Source of the DNA: Alphaproteobacteria bacterium
GTDB taxonomy: Bacteria; Pseudomonadota; Alphaproteobacteria; Bin95
Assembly (NCBI GenBank): GCA_022826185.1
Contig: JAJDVH010000158.1
Span: forward strand, 1-48,490
Reading direction: 5' to 3'
DNA length: 48,490 nucleotides
Both the position numbers and the translations under genes were made by a program. This document shows positions 14,294 to 23,852 of this stretch, in pieces (within the stretch, counting starts at the first letter, position 1; each line of letters begins with the position of its first letter). A model generated the notes under the pieces. It was not told the DNA's origin, did not search any database, and saw nothing but the letters and a program-made list of their open reading frames with translations.

Positions 14294-15291
14294 ACAGTCT
14301 CGCCCTGCCGATCGTCTTCGCCGCGCTGCTGGTGGTCGCGGCGCTCGTCGGCATCCCCTCCTATCCGCTGCATATCATGATCGTCATCCTGATCTGGGCA
14401 TTCACCTATACGGGCTGGTCGCTCATGGGGCGCTTCGGCCTCGTGTCGCTCGGGCACGGCGCGTTCATGGGCCTCGGCGCCTACGCGACGGCGCTGCTCT
14501 GGAACTATGCCGGCATGACGCCCTGGCTCGGCATTCCGATAGCGCTCGCTCTCGCGGCCCTGCTCGCCGTGATCGTCGGTTATCCCTGCTTCAAGTTCCG
14601 GATCACCGGACACTATTTCGCGCTCGTCACCCTGGCGCTGACGGAGGTAGTCCGCCAGACGGTGATCGCCACCCGCGACCATACCGGCGGCTCGCTCGGC
14701 TTTACGCCCACGCCACGGGGCAACGACGATACCCCCAGCATCGTCGCGCTCCAGTTCGAGGACAAGGAAACCTGGTTCCTGATCGCCGTTGTCGTGTGGC
14801 TGGTCGGCCTGCTGATCTGGCGGGCGGTGGACCGCTCGATGGTCCGTCATGCGCTCGACGCCGTCAGCGAGGACGAGGACAGCGCGGCCGCGGCCGGCAT
14901 CAACGTCACCTGGGAAAAGCTGAAGATCACCGTGCTCTCCGCCGTGATGACGGCATTCGGCGGCGCGATGTATGTGCAGTACCAACTGTTCGTCGCTCCC
15001 GACACGGTGAGCGGTATCGGCATTTCCCTGCAGATTGTCTTCGCCGTGGTCGCGGGCGGGGTGTTCACGCAGTTCGGTCCGACCTTCGGCGCGATCATCA
15101 CGCTCCTGCTGGCCGAGTTGCTGCGCATCTATATCGGCACCGACGCGGTCGGGCTCGACAATGCGATCTACGGTGTGGCGCTGGTCCTGTTCATCGTCTT
15201 CCTGCCCAAGGGCATTCTCGGCAGCATCGAAGACGCCGTGCGTCGTCGATTGGACAGGCAGGAACGGAGCAGCGTGACTTCGAGCGCCTAG
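14290..15291 (+). CDS. ABC transporter permease, LivM type
   Basis: A 333-residue inner-membrane permease, last gene of the importer. It has about nine hydrophobic helices; LivM marks include G-W-S-L-M-G-R-F-G-L-V-S-L-G-H-G-A-F-M-G, a coupling segment H-A-L-D-A-V-S-E-D-E, and G-G-V-F-T-Q-F-G-P-T-F-G-A. The frame is open far upstream (to 13009), but that part is antisense to nothing real and overlaps LivH; the ATG at 14290 in an ATGA overlap is the start. Confidence 0.92.
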   Translation: MNSLALPIVFAALLVVAALVGIPSYPLHIMIVILIWAFTYTGWSLMGRFGLVSLGHGAFMGLGAYATALLWNYAGMTPWLGIPIALALAALLAVIVGYPCFKFRITGHYFALVTLALTEVVRQTVIATRDHTGGSLGFTPTPRGNDDTPSIVALQFEDKETWFLIAVVVWLVGLLIWRAVDRSMVRHALDAVSEDEDSAAAAGINVTWEKLKITVLSAVMTAFGGAMYVQYQLFVAPDTVSGIGISLQIVFAVVAGGVFTQFGPTFGAIITLLLAELLRIYIGTDAVGLDNAIYGVALVLFIVFLPKGILGSIEDAVRRRLDRQERSSVTSSA

Positions 15292-15306
15292 TCGGACGAT
15301 CGAAGA

Positions 15307-15344
15307 TATTTAATTGTTGACTATTTAATATATATAACTATATT
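15307..15344 (+). promoter_or_regulatory. AT-rich promoter and candidate operator of the PIN toxin-antitoxin pair
   Basis: TTGACT at 15317-15322 and TATATT at 15339-15344 with a 16-nt spacer form a strong sigma-70-type promoter about 35 nt before the antitoxin ATG. A direct repeat TATTTAAT (15307-15314 and 15322-15329, 15 nt apart) flanks the -35, and AATATA/TATATT (15328-15333, 15339-15344) form an inverted pair over the -10. These repeats are candidate sites for antitoxin autorepression. The local base composition differs sharply from the GC-rich surroundings. Confidence 0.6.
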
Positions 15345-15378
15345 CCATCGCGTCTCATTGGCGGCAGGTTGCAACAAG

Positions 15379-15915
15379 ATGGCTATCAAGATTGCAGACG
15401 CTGTATGGATAGCGACGGCCACGCTTCATCGCGCAAACCCGCACCGGGCGGATTTCCCGGTCGCGGAAATCGTCGCACAGGTTGCGGCGGAAAACACAGG
15501 AGCAGGCGAGATGCACGCTCCCAGCGTCCAGGCGCATGTGTCAGTTCATTGCGTAGCCGGCAAGAAACCCCAGCCCAACCGCATGAAAATGCTGACCGAA
15601 ACATCAAGAGGGCGCCGGCGGCTGTACCGGCCGGGCGACGATTGCCACCCGGGCCGGCTTTCCGGCGCGTCGTTTCCCGACCGGGAGGCGCTGCCGCCGG
15701 CCTGTCGGGAACTGCTCGACTGGTACCACCAGGACTATCTGGCATCGGCATCGGGCGCCGCTGGCGATCCGGAATATTCATTGAGGGAGGCGGACATGGC
15801 GTGGCCCGTTGCGGCGGCGGACCCGATTCTGGCCTTGGAGGGCAGCGGCAGGGAAATCTGGGCGAACGAGGACGCTGACGCCTATGTCAGCCGTCTTCGC
15901 GAGGGCTGGGAGTGA
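15379..15915 (+). CDS. Putative antitoxin with large N-terminal domain, partner of PIN toxin
   Basis: A 178-residue protein not assigned to a named family. Residues about 1-125 form a compact domain (I-K-I-A-D-A-V-W-I-A-T-A at the start, then H-R-A-D-F-P-V-A-E-I-V and H-V-S-V-H-C-V-A) that could be a winged helix. The tail (about 148-178: D-P-I-L-A-L...G-R-E-I-W-A-N-E-D-A-D-A-Y-V) resembles the toxin-binding tails of VapB/Phd-like antitoxins. It overlaps the PIN gene by GTGA and follows a strong AT-rich promoter. ATG at 15379 is chosen over an upstream TTG at 15358. The antitoxin role is inferred from context and tail. Confidence 0.65.
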   Translation: MAIKIADAVWIATATLHRANPHRADFPVAEIVAQVAAENTGAGEMHAPSVQAHVSVHCVAGKKPQPNRMKMLTETSRGRRRLYRPGDDCHPGRLSGASFPDREALPPACRELLDWYHQDYLASASGAAGDPEYSLREADMAWPVAAADPILALEGSGREIWANEDADAYVSRLREGWE

Positions 15916-16334
15916 GCCGGATATTCTGGGATACGAACCTGTTCGTCTATCTCTTCGAGGGTCGGAGTCTGGAGACCGAACAGGTTCGCGCCCTCCGCAG
16001 GCGGATGCTTGAACGCGGGGACGAATTGCTCACCTCCGCACTCACGCTCGGCGAGCTTCTGGTCAAGCCGGTCGAAGCCGGACACGAAGAACTGGCGCAC
16101 CGCTATGAAAGGGCGATCGCGGAGGCGGCGACAGTGTTGCCGTTCGACCTTCGGGTCGCGCCCAGATTCGCAGAGATTCGCCGGGACCGCTCCATCCGTC
16201 CGCCCGACGCGATCCAGCTTGCGTGCGCGGCGGCGGCCGGCGCGAACCTCTTCATCACCAACGACAAGCGCCTGCGCCGCAAACAGGTTCGCGGCATCGA
16301 CTTTATCCAGTCGCTCGCCGAGGCGGCGATTTAG
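15912..16334 (+). CDS. PIN-domain ribonuclease toxin (VapC-like)
   Basis: A 140-residue PIN-domain protein, expected to be a magnesium-dependent RNase. All four acidic residues are visible: Asp7 in W-D-T-N, Glu48 in T-L-G-E-L, Asp99 in P-P-D-A-I-Q-L-A, and Asp118 in I-T-N-D. It begins with GTG in a GTGA overlap with the putative antitoxin gene. It is full length for the family and shows no sign of decay. The tRNA, rRNA or mRNA target is unknown. Confidence 0.88.
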   Translation: MSRIFWDTNLFVYLFEGRSLETEQVRALRRRMLERGDELLTSALTLGELLVKPVEAGHEELAHRYERAIAEAATVLPFDLRVAPRFAEIRRDRSIRPPDAIQLACAAAAGANLFITNDKRLRRKQVRGIDFIQSLAEAAI

Positions 16335-16401
16335 GCGAGCCGGCGACAGCTTCGCCTCGCGGAGCCTTGCCAAAGCCGCAGGCGGCGTCCATCTTGACCG
16401 T

Positions 16402-16500
16402 TCCACTCGGGGGAGCTGCGTTCAACGCGGCTGAGAGGTCCCGCCAACGGGACGACCCCAGGAACCTGATCCGGTTAGTACCGGCGGAGGGAGCGTGTGG
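16402..16500 (+). promoter_or_regulatory. TPP riboswitch (THI element)
   Basis: The conserved thiamine pyrophosphate aptamer elements appear in order: CTCGGGGG (16407-16414), GGCTGAGAGG (16429-16438), a variable GTCCCGCCAACGGGAC hairpin, GACCCC, GAACCTGATCCGG (16462-16474), TAGTACCGG and GCGGAGGGA (16484-16492). The only ribosome-binding sequence of the next gene, GGAGG, lies inside the aptamer's last conserved block, and CCAC at 16403-16406 can pair with GTGG at 16497-16500, which includes the GTG start codon. Ligand binding should therefore block translation initiation of the transporter. Confidence 0.93.
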
Positions 16501-17213
16501 GCGGGACCGCATCGGACATAGAGTTTGCCGTCGATATACGCGGAGCCGCGCTCTCCTATGGCGGCGCGCCGCTGTTCGACGGGCTGGACATCCGCCTCGA
16601 AGCCGGGCTCTGGACCTGCCTGCTCGGGCCAAGCGGGGTGGGCAAGACGAGCCTCCTTCGGCTGATCGCCGGGCTGGACGGCGCGGCCGCGGGCCGGGTG
16701 CGCACCGGGCCTGTCGCCTATATGGGCCAGAGCGACCTTCTGTTGCCCTGGGCCAACGCCCTGGAAAATGCGGTGCTGGGCGCGCGTCTGCGCGGCGAGC
16801 GGCCGGACTTCGACCGCGCGCGCCGGCTGTTGATCGAGGTCGGGCTCGGAGACGCCGTCCGGGCACTGCCGGCGACGCTCTCAGGCGGCGAGCGCCAACG
16901 TGTCGCGCTGGTGCGCACGCTGATGGAAGACCGTCCCGTCGTGCTGATGGACGAGCCCTTCAGTAGCCTGGACGCCATTACCCGACACGCGGCACAGGAC
17001 CTCGCCGCGCGGATGCTGGCGGGGCGGAGCGTGCTGCTCGTGACCCACGACCCGCTGGAGGCGCTGCGCCTCGGGGATCGGGTCCATGTCATGACGGGGC
17101 GGCCGGCGGCGCTGGAATCGCAGCCGGTGCCGGACCTTGCGCCGCCGCGCGATGTTCGCGACCCGGCGGTGCTGGCGGCGCAGGGCGAGCTGCTCGCAAG
17201 GCTTGCGGCATGA
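16497..17213 (+). CDS. thiZ: Thiamine-precursor ABC transporter ATP-binding protein ThiZ
   Basis: A 238-residue ATPase of the ThiXYZ pyrimidine-precursor importer. Walker A G-P-S-G-V-G-K-T, Q-loop A-Y-M-G-Q-S-D-L-L-L-P-W, signature L-S-G-G-E-R-Q-R-V and Walker B V-L-M-D-E-P-F-S-S-L-D are intact. The GTG start lies directly after a TPP riboswitch, so the whole unit should be shut off when thiamine pyrophosphate is plentiful. It overlaps thiX by ATGA. Confidence 0.92.
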   Translation: MGGTASDIEFAVDIRGAALSYGGAPLFDGLDIRLEAGLWTCLLGPSGVGKTSLLRLIAGLDGAAAGRVRTGPVAYMGQSDLLLPWANALENAVLGARLRGERPDFDRARRLLIEVGLGDAVRALPATLSGGERQRVALVRTLMEDRPVVLMDEPFSSLDAITRHAAQDLAARMLAGRSVLLVTHDPLEALRLGDRVHVMTGRPAALESQPVPDLAPPRDVRDPAVLAAQGELLARLAA

Positions 17214-17989: not shown

Positions 17990-18927
17990 AACCCCGCCTT
18001 CCGGCGCTTGCCGTTGCCTGTCTGCTTGCTGCCCATCCCGCAGCGGCGGAAGAGAAACTCACCGTGTTGCTCGACTGGTTCGTCAATCCGGACCACGGGC
18101 CGCTCTATGTGGCGCAGGAGCGCGGCTATTTCGCCGAGGCCGGCCTGTCGGTGGAATTCGTGCCGCCTGCCGACCCGAACGATCCGCCGAAGATCGTGGC
18201 GGCCGGCAAGGCGGACCTCGCGGTCTCCTACCAGCCGCAATTGCACATGCAGGCGGCTGCGGGCCTGCCGCTGGTGCGCATCGCCACCCTGGTGGCCACG
18301 CCGCTCAACACGATCGTGGTGCTTGAGGACAGCCCGATCCGCACGATCGCCGACCTCAAGGGCAAGCGGGTGGGCTATTCCGTGGCGGGGCTGGAAGACG
18401 CCCTGCTCGAAGGCGTGCTCCAGCCCCACGGGCTCACGATGGACGATATCGAGAAGGTGAACGTCAACTGGTCGCTCTCGCCGTCGCTCATTGCAGGGCA
18501 GGTAGATGCGGTGATCGGCGCTTTCCGCAATTTCGAGCTGAACCAGATGGATATCGTGGGCCATCCGGGCCGCGCCTTCTATCTGGAGGAAGAGGGTGTG
18601 CCGCCCTATGACGAACTGATCGTCGTCGCCCACAAGGACACGCTCGACCGTCCCGCCTACCGCGCCTTCGTGGACGCGGTCGAGCGCGGCGTCCAGTACA
18701 TGGTCAACCATCCCGAGGAGTCCTGGGCGCTGTTCATCGCCGGCGACCGCAAGGACCTCGATGACGAACTCAACCGCCGGGCCTGGCGGGACACGCTGCC
18801 TCGCTTCGCGCTCAGGCCGGCGGCGCTGGACCGGCGGCGCTACGAGCGGTTCGCAGAGTTCGTCGTGGAGCGCGGCCTGGTGGACTCCCTGCCGCCGGTG
18901 GAGACCTATGCGGTGGAGCTGCAATAG
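17986..18927 (+). CDS. thiY: Thiamine-precursor ABC transporter substrate-binding protein ThiY
   Basis: A 313-residue periplasmic protein of the NMT1/THI5-like family; characterised ThiY binds formylaminopyrimidine, a thiamine breakdown product salvaged for HMP. Signal peptide about 1-22 (ending A-H-P-A-A-A). The strongly conserved L-D-W-F-V-N-P-D-H-G-P-L-Y segment, P-A-D-P-N-D-P-P-K-I-V-A-A-G-K and S-Y-Q-P-Q are all present. Last gene of the riboswitch-controlled unit; no tenA or thi biosynthesis gene follows, so the salvage enzymes must lie elsewhere. Confidence 0.93.
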   Translation: MKPRLPALAVACLLAAHPAAAEEKLTVLLDWFVNPDHGPLYVAQERGYFAEAGLSVEFVPPADPNDPPKIVAAGKADLAVSYQPQLHMQAAAGLPLVRIATLVATPLNTIVVLEDSPIRTIADLKGKRVGYSVAGLEDALLEGVLQPHGLTMDDIEKVNVNWSLSPSLIAGQVDAVIGAFRNFELNQMDIVGHPGRAFYLEEEGVPPYDELIVVAHKDTLDRPAYRAFVDAVERGVQYMVNHPEESWALFIAGDRKDLDDELNRRAWRDTLPRFALRPAALDRRRYERFAEFVVERGLVDSLPPVETYAVELQ

Positions 18928-21874: not shown

Positions 21875-22285
21875 ATGGTAGTTTACAATTTGTTCATTAG
21901 TCATTCGTGGACTTATAGCGATGCCTATGAGCGTTTGCTCGGCCTGTTGAAGCCAAAATCAAGATTTCACTTCAAAAATTATTCTGTTCCCAGAGATAAT
22001 CCAATACACAATGCAAATTCTGCGGCCGCTCTTCGTGTCGCCATTAAATCGCAAATGCAATCTGCTAGTGTTGTGTTAATATTAGCAGGCGTATATGCGA
22101 CTTATAGCAAGTGGATTAATGAGGAAATCCGATTGGCAAAAGAAGGGTTTCCGTATGCGAAGTCAATCGTTGCTATTGAACCATGGGGAAGTGAACGGAC
22201 ATCTTCGATAGTGAAACAAAACGCAGATGAAATAGTAAAGTGGAATACTGATAGTATAGTCAATGCGATACGGAGAGCAGCATGA
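21875..22285 (+). CDS. TIR-like (DUF1863/Thoeris ThsB-type) protein
   Basis: A 136-residue protein that looks like a stand-alone TIR-like domain. The N-terminal strand Y-N-L-F-I-S-H-S-W is the family hallmark; the segment A-S-V-V-L-I-L-A-G-V-Y (64-74) is a core strand; and S-K-W-I-N-E-E-I-R-L-A (78-88) carries the likely catalytic Glu84. Thoeris ThsB proteins of this type make a cyclic ADP-ribose-like signal from NAD+ on phage infection. Base composition and codon use are clearly AT-rich compared with both flanks, which indicates transfer. It overlaps the membrane-protein gene by ATGA. Ribosome-binding signal weak; catalytic activity is inferred. Confidence 0.82.
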   Translation: MVVYNLFISHSWTYSDAYERLLGLLKPKSRFHFKNYSVPRDNPIHNANSAAALRVAIKSQMQSASVVLILAGVYATYSKWINEEIRLAKEGFPYAKSIVAIEPWGSERTSSIVKQNADEIVKWNTDSIVNAIRRAA

Positions 22286-22731
22286 CCACAAATAACGATC
22301 ATGAACTTATCGAAATATACAAAATTCATGTGGAACTGGCTGACCGAGTTAGCCAAAGACGCGAAGGGGCAAATAAGTTATACGTTAGCCTGTTGTCGGC
22401 TATTGCCGTGCTTATAGGGATATTGACAAGATTCGACAGCAATAGTCTTCCTCAAGATATTTTGTTGCCGTTTATGGGAATTATGGGACTTATAATTTCA
22501 TTTTCTTGGTGGATCGTTATACGTTCTTACAAGCAACTTAATTCGGGAAAATTTGATATGCTGCATGAGATCGAGGAAAAGCTCTCGTATCAGCCATTCA
22601 AAAGGGAATGGCATTTCCTGCGTGAAGGGAAGGATTTGAAGGTATATTCGAAGCTGACTACTGTTGAGAGCATTTTGCCGGCCTCGTTCGGAATCGGCTT
22701 TGCCTTTTTGATTATCTATTTCGTTTTCTGA
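22282..22731 (+). CDS. Small membrane protein, RipA-like, partner of the TIR-like protein
   Basis: A 149-residue protein with three predicted membrane helices (about 34-52, 59-83 and 132-149). A charged N-terminal helix (E-L-I-E-I-Y-K-I-H-V-E-L-A-D-R-V-S-Q-R-R) and a central cytoplasmic part with S-Y-K-Q-L-N-S-G-K-F and F-K-R-E-W are conserved-looking. From memory this resembles the family annotated as RipA octameric membrane proteins, named after Francisella RipA. The four-base overlap and shared AT-rich composition tie it to the TIR-like gene. A membrane effector switched by a TIR product is the natural hypothesis, not shown by sequence. Confidence 0.75.
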   Translation: MTTNNDHELIEIYKIHVELADRVSQRREGANKLYVSLLSAIAVLIGILTRFDSNSLPQDILLPFMGIMGLIISFSWWIVIRSYKQLNSGKFDMLHEIEEKLSYQPFKREWHFLREGKDLKVYSKLTTVESILPASFGIGFAFLIIYFVF

Positions 22732-22811
22732 GTTTTGTATGAAGCCTGAGTGATGCCGGATTTCCCGTTTTTTGATCTTCCAAATGGTCAACAGTCTGGA
22801 GGCGCGTCCCC

Positions 22812-23852
22812 ATGAAGCTGGGTCTTTCAATCGGTTACTCGGGCGCCCGGCTCGATTTCCCGACGGAGCTGGTGAAGCTCGCCGACAGGCTCGGCTATGA
22901 CACGGTGTGGACGGCCGAGTCATACGGCACCGACGCCATGACGCCGCTCGCCTATCTGGCGGCCGTCACGGAGCGGATCAAGCTCGGCACCGGCATCATC
23001 CAGCTTGCCGCGCGCACGGCGGCCAATGCGGCGATGCAGGCCCAGACCATCGACGCGCTTGCCGGCGGCGGGCGGATGATCGTCGGCATCGGCGTTTCCG
23101 GGCCGCAGATCGTCGAGGGCTGGTATGGGGAACCCTGGGGCCGGCCTTACTGGCGGATCAAGGACTATGTCGCGATCATGCGGAAGATCTTCGCGCGCGA
23201 GGAGCCCGTGACGCATCAGGGCCGCGAAATCTCGCTCCCCTACGAGGGCGAAGGCTCCGCCGGCATGGGCAAGCCGCTCCGCATGATCCTGCATCCCAAC
23301 CCGGACATCCCGATCTATCTCGGCACCGGAGCCGAGTCGACGGTGCGCCTGACGGGCGAGATTGCCGACGGCTGGCTGCCGCTCGGCTTCGTGCCCGGCT
23401 CGCTCGACGAATACCGCCCCTGGCTGGAGCAGGGCTTCGCGCGGGCCGGCAACGGCAAGGGCTTCCACAATTTCGAGATCGTCGCCTCGCCGCATGTCAT
23501 TCTGGGCGACGATGTGAAGGCGGGGCTGGCGTCGCTCAAGCCGCGCGAAGCGCTCTATGTCGGCGGCATGGGGCATCGGGACAAGAACTTCCACAACCAG
23601 ATGATGCGCCGCCGGGGCTTCGCCGACGCGGCCGAGCGCATCCAGGAACTCTACCTCGACGGCCGCAAGGAGGAGGCGGCCGCGGCCGTGCCGGACGAGT
23701 GGGTGGACATGAAGGCGCTCATCGGCCCGCCGGCGCGCATCAAGCAGCGTTTCCGCGCCTGGGCCGACAGCGGCGCCACCGCCATCACCGTGCGCACCCG
23801 CAGCGAGGAGGCCGTCCACGTCATCGGGGAGGCCGCCCGGCTGAACCGGTAG
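22812..23852 (+). CDS. LLM-class flavin-dependent (F420-type) oxidoreductase
   Basis: A 346-residue luciferase-like TIM-barrel oxidoreductase. Family marks: K-L-G-L-S-I-G-Y at the start, L-A-D-R-L-G-Y-D-T-V-W-T-A-E-S-Y-G, T-E-R-I-K-L-G-T-G-I-I-Q, and G-E-I-A-D-G-W-L-P-L-G-F. The cofactor may be F420 or FMN; sequence alone does not settle this. SD GGAGG lies about 12 nt before the ATG. GC content returns to normal from about 22795, marking the right edge of the island. Confidence 0.88.
   Translation: MKLGLSIGYSGARLDFPTELVKLADRLGYDTVWTAESYGTDAMTPLAYLAAVTERIKLGTGIIQLAARTAANAAMQAQTIDALAGGGRMIVGIGVSGPQIVEGWYGEPWGRPYWRIKDYVAIMRKIFAREEPVTHQGREISLPYEGEGSAGMGKPLRMILHPNPDIPIYLGTGAESTVRLTGEIADGWLPLGFVPGSLDEYRPWLEQGFARAGNGKGFHNFEIVASPHVILGDDVKAGLASLKPREALYVGGMGHRDKNFHNQMMRRRGFADAAERIQELYLDGRKEEAAAAVPDEWVDMKALIGPPARIKQRFRAWADSGATAITVRTRSEEAVHVIGEAARLNR

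Follow-up and report, generated by a model that had tools for sequence, protein, structure and literature searches.

A VapBC/FitAB-like gene pair with a candidate DUF7669-like winged-helix antitoxin head in an alphaproteobacterium

In VapBC systems the C-terminal tail of the antitoxin VapB wraps the toxin VapC, and an arginine of the tail contacts residues of the active site; a similar contact is described for FitAB in the accessible part of PMC3384007. The antitoxin heads named in the accessible text of a review (PMC4803016) are HTH, RHH, AbrB and Phd/YefM. Winged-HTH-type heads, namely DUF433 and MerR-like ones, had already been predicted for PIN antitoxins by Makarova et al. 2009 (PMC2701414), as far as the accessible portion of that paper goes. 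The gene pair considered here is placed with modules of the VapBC/FitAB type by sequence similarity of the tail and the toxin and by gene order. Its predicted head is different.

The window (the whole stretch of DNA analysed, 48,490 nucleotides from an alphaproteobacterium) contains two genes forming one operon with the antitoxin gene first. The antitoxin gene (15379..15915, + strand) encodes a protein of 178 amino acids with an N-terminal head, a conserved helical segment, a variable linker and a C-terminal tail. The predicted toxin gene (15912..16334, + strand) starts with GTG and encodes a protein of 140 amino acids containing a PIN domain (PF01850, E 3.7e-20, 73.2 bits against the Pfam cut-off of 23.6). 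The original prediction of a 178-residue antitoxin candidate and a PIN protein was confirmed for both reading frames. The stop codon of the first gene and the start codon of the second overlap by 4 nt, and this overlap suggests coupled translation in which the antitoxin would be made first. Across alleles the antitoxin has 161-178 residues, above the usual length for antitoxins of the PIN group. Both genes are under purifying selection: pairwise dN/dS values are well below 1, about 0.12-0.36 for the antitoxin and 0.07-0.29 for the toxin, for pairs with computable dS, several dS values being large or not computable.

The gene upstream of the pair, ending at 15291, presumably encodes a LivM-type permease, as recognised by reading the sequence. 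Downstream of the toxin gene, a TPP riboswitch (16399-16509, RF00059, 66.1 bits) is followed by an ABC-transporter gene, which we take, again by reading, to encode the ATPase. The riboswitch adjoins the pair in all four loci of the genus that were read with both (L046, L048, L049 and L050).

Judging from its family, the PIN protein is most likely a toxin acting as a metal-dependent RNase. The residues D7, E48, D99 and D118 are invariant in all six aligned PIN proteins; from knowledge of the family, we take them to be candidate catalytic acids. The closest solved sequence is the toxin VapC 7by2 (E 0.05 with the single sequence and 0.0034 with the profile). The same genome encodes two further, distant PIN proteins (E 3.4e-5 and 0.003), and no relatives of the toxin were found in plasmids.

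The pair was found in other genomes as well. Ten distinct loci encode the full antitoxin: the window, L004-L008 (from public genome contigs), L012, L013, L018 and L019. Three more matches, L009, L010 and L011, have the contig coordinates of L004, L005 and L007, and so were not counted. Every one of the ten loci has a PIN partner with the identical 4-nt overlap, and the upstream gene was not found to be widespread without such a partner, a finding that would have spoken against the original prediction. The pair is present in six of the eight genomes of the genus. One of the remaining genomes, G007 (rated 100% complete), has a livM fragment preceding its riboswitch-transporter locus and no pair; in another, G006, the locus ends at the riboswitch, so that the site of the pair cannot be judged there.

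The distribution is narrow. Full relatives of the antitoxin occur in 6/14 genomes of the family and in three of the 289 genomes of a class sample (G000, which is the window's genome, G290 and G297). Those three genomes are also the ones of the sample with close relatives of the PIN protein (E<=1e-20); within the family of G290, the count is one genome of 11. No antitoxin relatives were observed in plasmids, phages or viral contigs, and a wide distribution was rejected on these counts. The search of the phylum with the N-terminal domain gave matches in 7/398 genomes, six of them weak (E 0.0016-0.0085). The weak matches (L023-L028) were treated as chance; of these, the three loci inspected, L023, L026 and L027, have no such pair. 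Further weak antitoxin matches in the window's own genome have E values of 0.18 and 2.8. The G197 genome (L020), a fourth match in the class sample but by its tail alone, contains an orphan tail with neither a head nor a PIN gene in the stretch read, and it was excluded from the count of full antitoxins.

The alleles appear to be mosaic, as the antitoxin and toxin trees conflict. L006 is placed beside the window and L004 in the antitoxin tree (support 100/99), but beside L005 and L007 in the toxin tree (100/99). When the alternative grouping was forced, the AU test rejected it with p 0.0002 on the antitoxin data and 0.010 on the toxin data, for groups chosen after seeing the trees. Identities by block place the switch in L006 near the gene boundary. 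In L007 the switch is inside the antitoxin: the first 240 alignment columns are similar to L012 (88-95%), the next blocks are similar to L005, and the promoter sequence is common to L007 and L012. One possibility is that such a pattern may be caused by assembly chimerism in metagenome bins. However, the blocks are about 75-95% identical, not near-identical, and this favours old recombination. The L006 contig (VXPS01000076.1) is labelled Chloroflexi, and both the pair and its flanks, the upstream stretch and a downstream riboswitch-like sequence, are similar to those of the window's genus. Hence the contig has probably been mis-binned, rather than the pair transferred to Chloroflexi.

The C-terminal tail (residues 148-178, positions 15820..15912, + strand) is a predicted PIN-binding peptide. 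Fifteen of its 31 columns are invariant in an alignment of ten tails, which takes in the orphan tail from G197. Between the head and the tail, alleles of 176-178 amino acids contain about 15-17 residues more than alleles of 161-162 residues. The original prediction had described the tail as typical of toxin-binding peptides, and it does resemble the tail of a FitA-like antitoxin encoded beside a related PIN gene (L056, in genome G079). The profile of the tail scores 20.0 bits against this protein, a score reached by none of 20000 shuffles, the best of which had 11.7 bits. The L056 antitoxin has 76 amino acids and a FitA-like RHH head (PF22513, 41.4 bits, cut-off 27); the PIN gene directly downstream of it encodes a protein 36% identical to the PIN protein of the window. 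This match (E 0.0036) was picked from a noisy search that, at E<=0.5, gave hits in 61 of the 299 genomes, and of the five loci inspected (L056, L064, L063, L061 and L066) it is the only convincing one. No tail matches were found in the PDB or in plasmids. The tail also contains conserved arginines, Arg172 and Arg174, which by analogy with VapB may make a like contact with the active site of the PIN protein.

The head is the unusual part. The N-terminal domain (residues 1-93, positions 15379..15657, + strand) has predicted helices at residues 5-19, 28-38 and 44-55 and a strand at 79-81. The antitoxin has no matches above the curated cut-offs in Pfam and NCBIfam, and no matches whatever in PADLOC or PHROGs. 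Head families of the RHH, AbrB and Phd types were not found on it in Pfam and NCBIfam up to E 10, nor were DUF433 or MerR in Pfam, and its best match among PDB sequences has E 1. A listed VapB head (RHH, AbrB or Phd) was not taken as required, as heads vary within the VapBC/FitAB group.

A weak match to DUF7669 (PF24706) was observed, with 13.8 bits for the whole protein and 15.0 bits for the N-terminal domain alone against a cut-off of 23, and only one of nine N-terminal domains gives this match in Pfam at E<=1. Comparison of profiles with hhalign gave P 2.8e-5 and a probability of 74% for the N-terminal domain against a set of DUF7669 domains, consisting of ten proteins or pieces from other contexts with L034 left out. 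The DUF7669 HMM was also run on the nine N-terminal domains, and each score was reached by 0 to 33 of 9000 pooled shuffles. In the reverse direction the test is weak, the antitoxin HMM setting only two of the ten DUF7669 proteins clearly apart from their shuffles. Against three DUF7669-HicB proteins alone, the antitoxin profile has a probability of 1.2%. In the profile alignment, the segments F..EIV, H...HC and GRRRLYRPGD occupy like positions in the N-terminal domain and in DUF7669.

In structure prediction of the antitoxin alone, the full-length model is poor (pLDDT 44.7). The model of residues 1-93 (six sequences) has a mean pLDDT of 61.3, about 77-80 for residues 11-40, and a pTM of 0.55; its three helices and short strands fit the H1-H2-H3 plus beta wing topology and make it winged-helix-like. 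A Foldseek search with this model gave no significant matches (best E 0.49), its first three rows being forkhead domains. Among the matches listed by VIA, Z was 5.4-7.2 and none had Z of at least 8; nearly all of them are winged-helix chains, judged by reading their titles. None of the 50 rows listed is an antitoxin, which is no evidence of absence. A further indication comes from a response regulator (L033), where the DUF7669 model aligns within the Trans_reg_C domain (158-231), at residues 174-221, with 22.2 bits, just under the cut-off, and 23.7 bits in the genome search. The Trans_reg_C domain is a winged helix.

Thus the antitoxin head is likely, although not proven, to be a winged helix with a remote relation to DUF7669. 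With a score below the cut-off and profile homology that is only remote, it is called DUF7669-like here, not a member of DUF7669. The original prediction had treated an N-terminal domain of about 120 residues as one that could not be placed; it is placeable after all, as a probable DUF7669-like winged helix, while full membership in the family does not hold.

DUF7669 itself scores above the cut-off in 4/14 genomes of the order and 6/398 genomes of the phylum, the window's genome being counted in both. The contexts are three proteins with HNH_2, two with NucS_C and one response regulator. Scans of viral contigs for DUF7669 proteins were fruitless. Of the plasmid proteins, one is annotated as a GIY-YIG nuclease and one as a NucS-domain protein. 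The latter, a DUF7669-NucS protein of a Pseudomonas aeruginosa plasmid (NZ_OX638702.1, L044), has as neighbours an IS21 transposase and a protein annotated as abortive-infection family, and this neighbourhood might be a part of a defence island.

DUF7669 was also observed at the head of another antitoxin. In four of the eight genomes of the genus, among them that of the window, a HicB-like protein headed by DUF7669 adjoins HicA. The copy in the window's genome (L014; G000 contig C156, about 18462-18584, - strand) overlaps the HicA gene, and L015-L017 are arranged alike. In the G003 copy, the DUF7669 head scores 26.4 bits, which is over the cut-off, and the adjacent HicA matches HicA_toxin with 49 bits (cut-off 27). 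The HicB-like part of these proteins has 26.1 bits with PF24113 and 17.1 bits with PF21748, each under its cut-off. Taken together, L014 and the PIN antitoxin mean that one genome has a DUF7669 head and a DUF7669-like head on two antitoxins. Searches of the open-licence literature gave no published antitoxin with DUF7669.

The upstream region of the pair is AT-rich. The 90 nt preceding the ATG codon have 37% GC, the window being mostly 61-73% GC, and the corresponding regions of all ten loci have 37-49%. A probable sigma-70-type promoter, TTGACT-16-TATATT (15317..15344, + strand), agrees with the consensus in ten of 12 positions and is partly conserved in L004 and L006; one match of this type was observed against 0.3 +/- 0.6 in shuffles. 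The original prediction suggested that spaced direct repeats and an AATATA/TATATT pair in this region form a distinctive DNA-binding site. Both are present: there are two copies of TATTTAAT upstream of the antitoxin gene, and AATATA occupies 15327-15332 and TATATT 15339-15344. However, TATATT is the -10-like hexamer of the promoter, an 8-mer direct repeat arises in 118/2000 dinucleotide shuffles of 15300-15350, and 56/200 shuffles of the 90 nt preceding the ATG contain a perfect inverted repeat whose arms are at least 6 nt long. Two relatives have a related promoter: L004, from which both copies of TATTTAAT are missing, and L006, which has only the first. The repeats were therefore rejected as a special operator, being at chance level and poorly conserved. 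No conserved operator was found among the ten loci, and the best inverted repeat of the window is chance-like. Stronger inverted repeats were observed in three of the ten loci tested, the shuffle counts being uncorrected for the number of loci: L018 with 9-nt arms (1/200 shuffles), L013 with 8-nt arms (8/200) and L012 with 7-nt arms (14/200).

We consider it probable that the pair is a VapBC/FitAB-like toxin-antitoxin module of type II. In such a module the PIN protein would be toxic, and the last approximately 31 residues of the antitoxin, with Arg172 and Arg174, would be laid over its active site and neutralise it; this is suggested by the resemblance to the tail of the FitA-like antitoxin and by the published VapB and FitA structures. 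The winged-helix head, standing where an RHH or AbrB domain is usual, would bind the AT-rich promoter of the operon and repress it, and the gene overlap would couple translation. The toxin-antitoxin reading of the original prediction is supported by the pairing in ten of ten loci, the invariant acids in all six PIN proteins and the FitA-like tail. The role of the head is where another reading has some weight: the N-terminal domain of the same pair could serve for dimerisation, stability or protein interaction, the promoter not being autoregulated through it. This is possible but markedly less probable. It would agree with the failure to find a conserved operator, with the remoteness of the homology to DUF7669 and with the presence in the fold list of protein-binding winged helices (the cullin WHB domain and ESCRT-II). 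On the other hand, HNH and NucS nucleases contain relatives of DUF7669, the DUF7669 model coincides with Trans_reg_C in the response regulator, and longer inverted repeats precede the genes in L012, L013 and L018.

The same nucleases bear on a reading that departs further from classical toxin-antitoxin logic, namely that a PIN nuclease and a DNA-directed regulator form, say, a device for stress or defence, the winged helix releasing the nuclease upon sensing DNA that is foreign or modified. The occurrence of DUF7669 in HNH and NucS nucleases, one of the latter beside the annotated abortive-infection family protein, is in line with this; the antitoxin, however, has no counterpart in PADLOC and is absent from the phages and plasmids searched, the neighbouring genes appear to encode transporters, and in gene order, overlap and tail the pair matches a VapBC operon. 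We regard such a device as improbable. Finally, the orphan tail of G197, with neither N-terminal domain nor PIN gene, could be taken to mean that the pair is a decaying remnant, or its upstream frame a mis-called ORF encoding no functional antitoxin. With all ten full loci intact and dN/dS well below 1 for both genes, this is very unlikely. Returning to the type II module, a broader and rather speculative extension may be offered, which we hold to be doubtful. The DUF7669-like winged helix could be a portable DNA-reading module, mounted on a FitA/VapB tail, on a HicB-like domain and on several nucleases. In antitoxins it would read both the promoter and a signal of foreign, modified or damaged DNA that releases the toxin, with promoter-plus-head blocks and toxin blocks exchanged by recombination.

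Elsewhere in the window, a low-GC island of two genes was observed at 21875-22731 (46% GC for 22001-23000). It encodes a ThsB-type TIR protein (PF08937, E 4e-16; PADLOC ThsB, E 3e-12), and the TIR gene overlaps a gene for an 8xMP membrane protein (PF24838, E 2.1e-34). These two genes are possibly a Thoeris-like defence pair; ThsA was sought in the adjoining ORFs only. No paper describing 8xMP together with Thoeris was found in the open-licence literature.

If the preferred reading of the PIN pair is right, DUF7669, a Pfam family of unknown function, would gain a role as a winged-helix DNA-binding head, and would count among antitoxin heads, serving within a single genome against toxins of two unrelated families. 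The natural mosaic alleles, such as L006 with a window-like antitoxin and a toxin similar to those of L005 and L007, are suited to asking how far the tail determines which toxin an antitoxin recognises. What is generally understood of type II systems is unchanged, winged-HTH-type heads of PIN antitoxins having been predicted earlier (PMC2701414). The novelty is modest: the new element would be the DUF7669-like head, on a tail of the ordinary toxin-blocking type in a system of a very common kind.

Among known systems, FitAB of Neisseria gonorrhoeae, which is of the VapBC type, similarly combines a PIN toxin with an antitoxin tail expected over the active site, according to the accessible parts of PMC3384007 and PMC4803016. 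However, the head of FitA is a ribbon-helix-helix, whereas the window encodes an antitoxin of 178 amino acids with a winged-helix-like head. The G079 pair is arranged in the same way, the antitoxin gene being directly followed by the PIN gene, and has a related tail and a PIN protein 36% identical; its antitoxin, on the other hand, has only 76 amino acids and the PF22513 RHH head instead of a DUF7669-like domain. The predicted DUF433/COG2442-PIN and MerR-like-PIN systems, as presented in the accessible part of PMC2701414, share with our pair a PIN protein and a predicted winged-HTH-type antitoxin head, but these heads are DUF433 or MerR-like, and the antitoxin of the window matches neither. 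The HicAB pair of the same genome comes close, with a DUF7669 head on an antitoxin whose gene is directly upstream of the toxin gene, whereas its toxin is HicA and its neutralising domain is HicB-like, both unrelated to the PIN protein and the tail of the pair described here.
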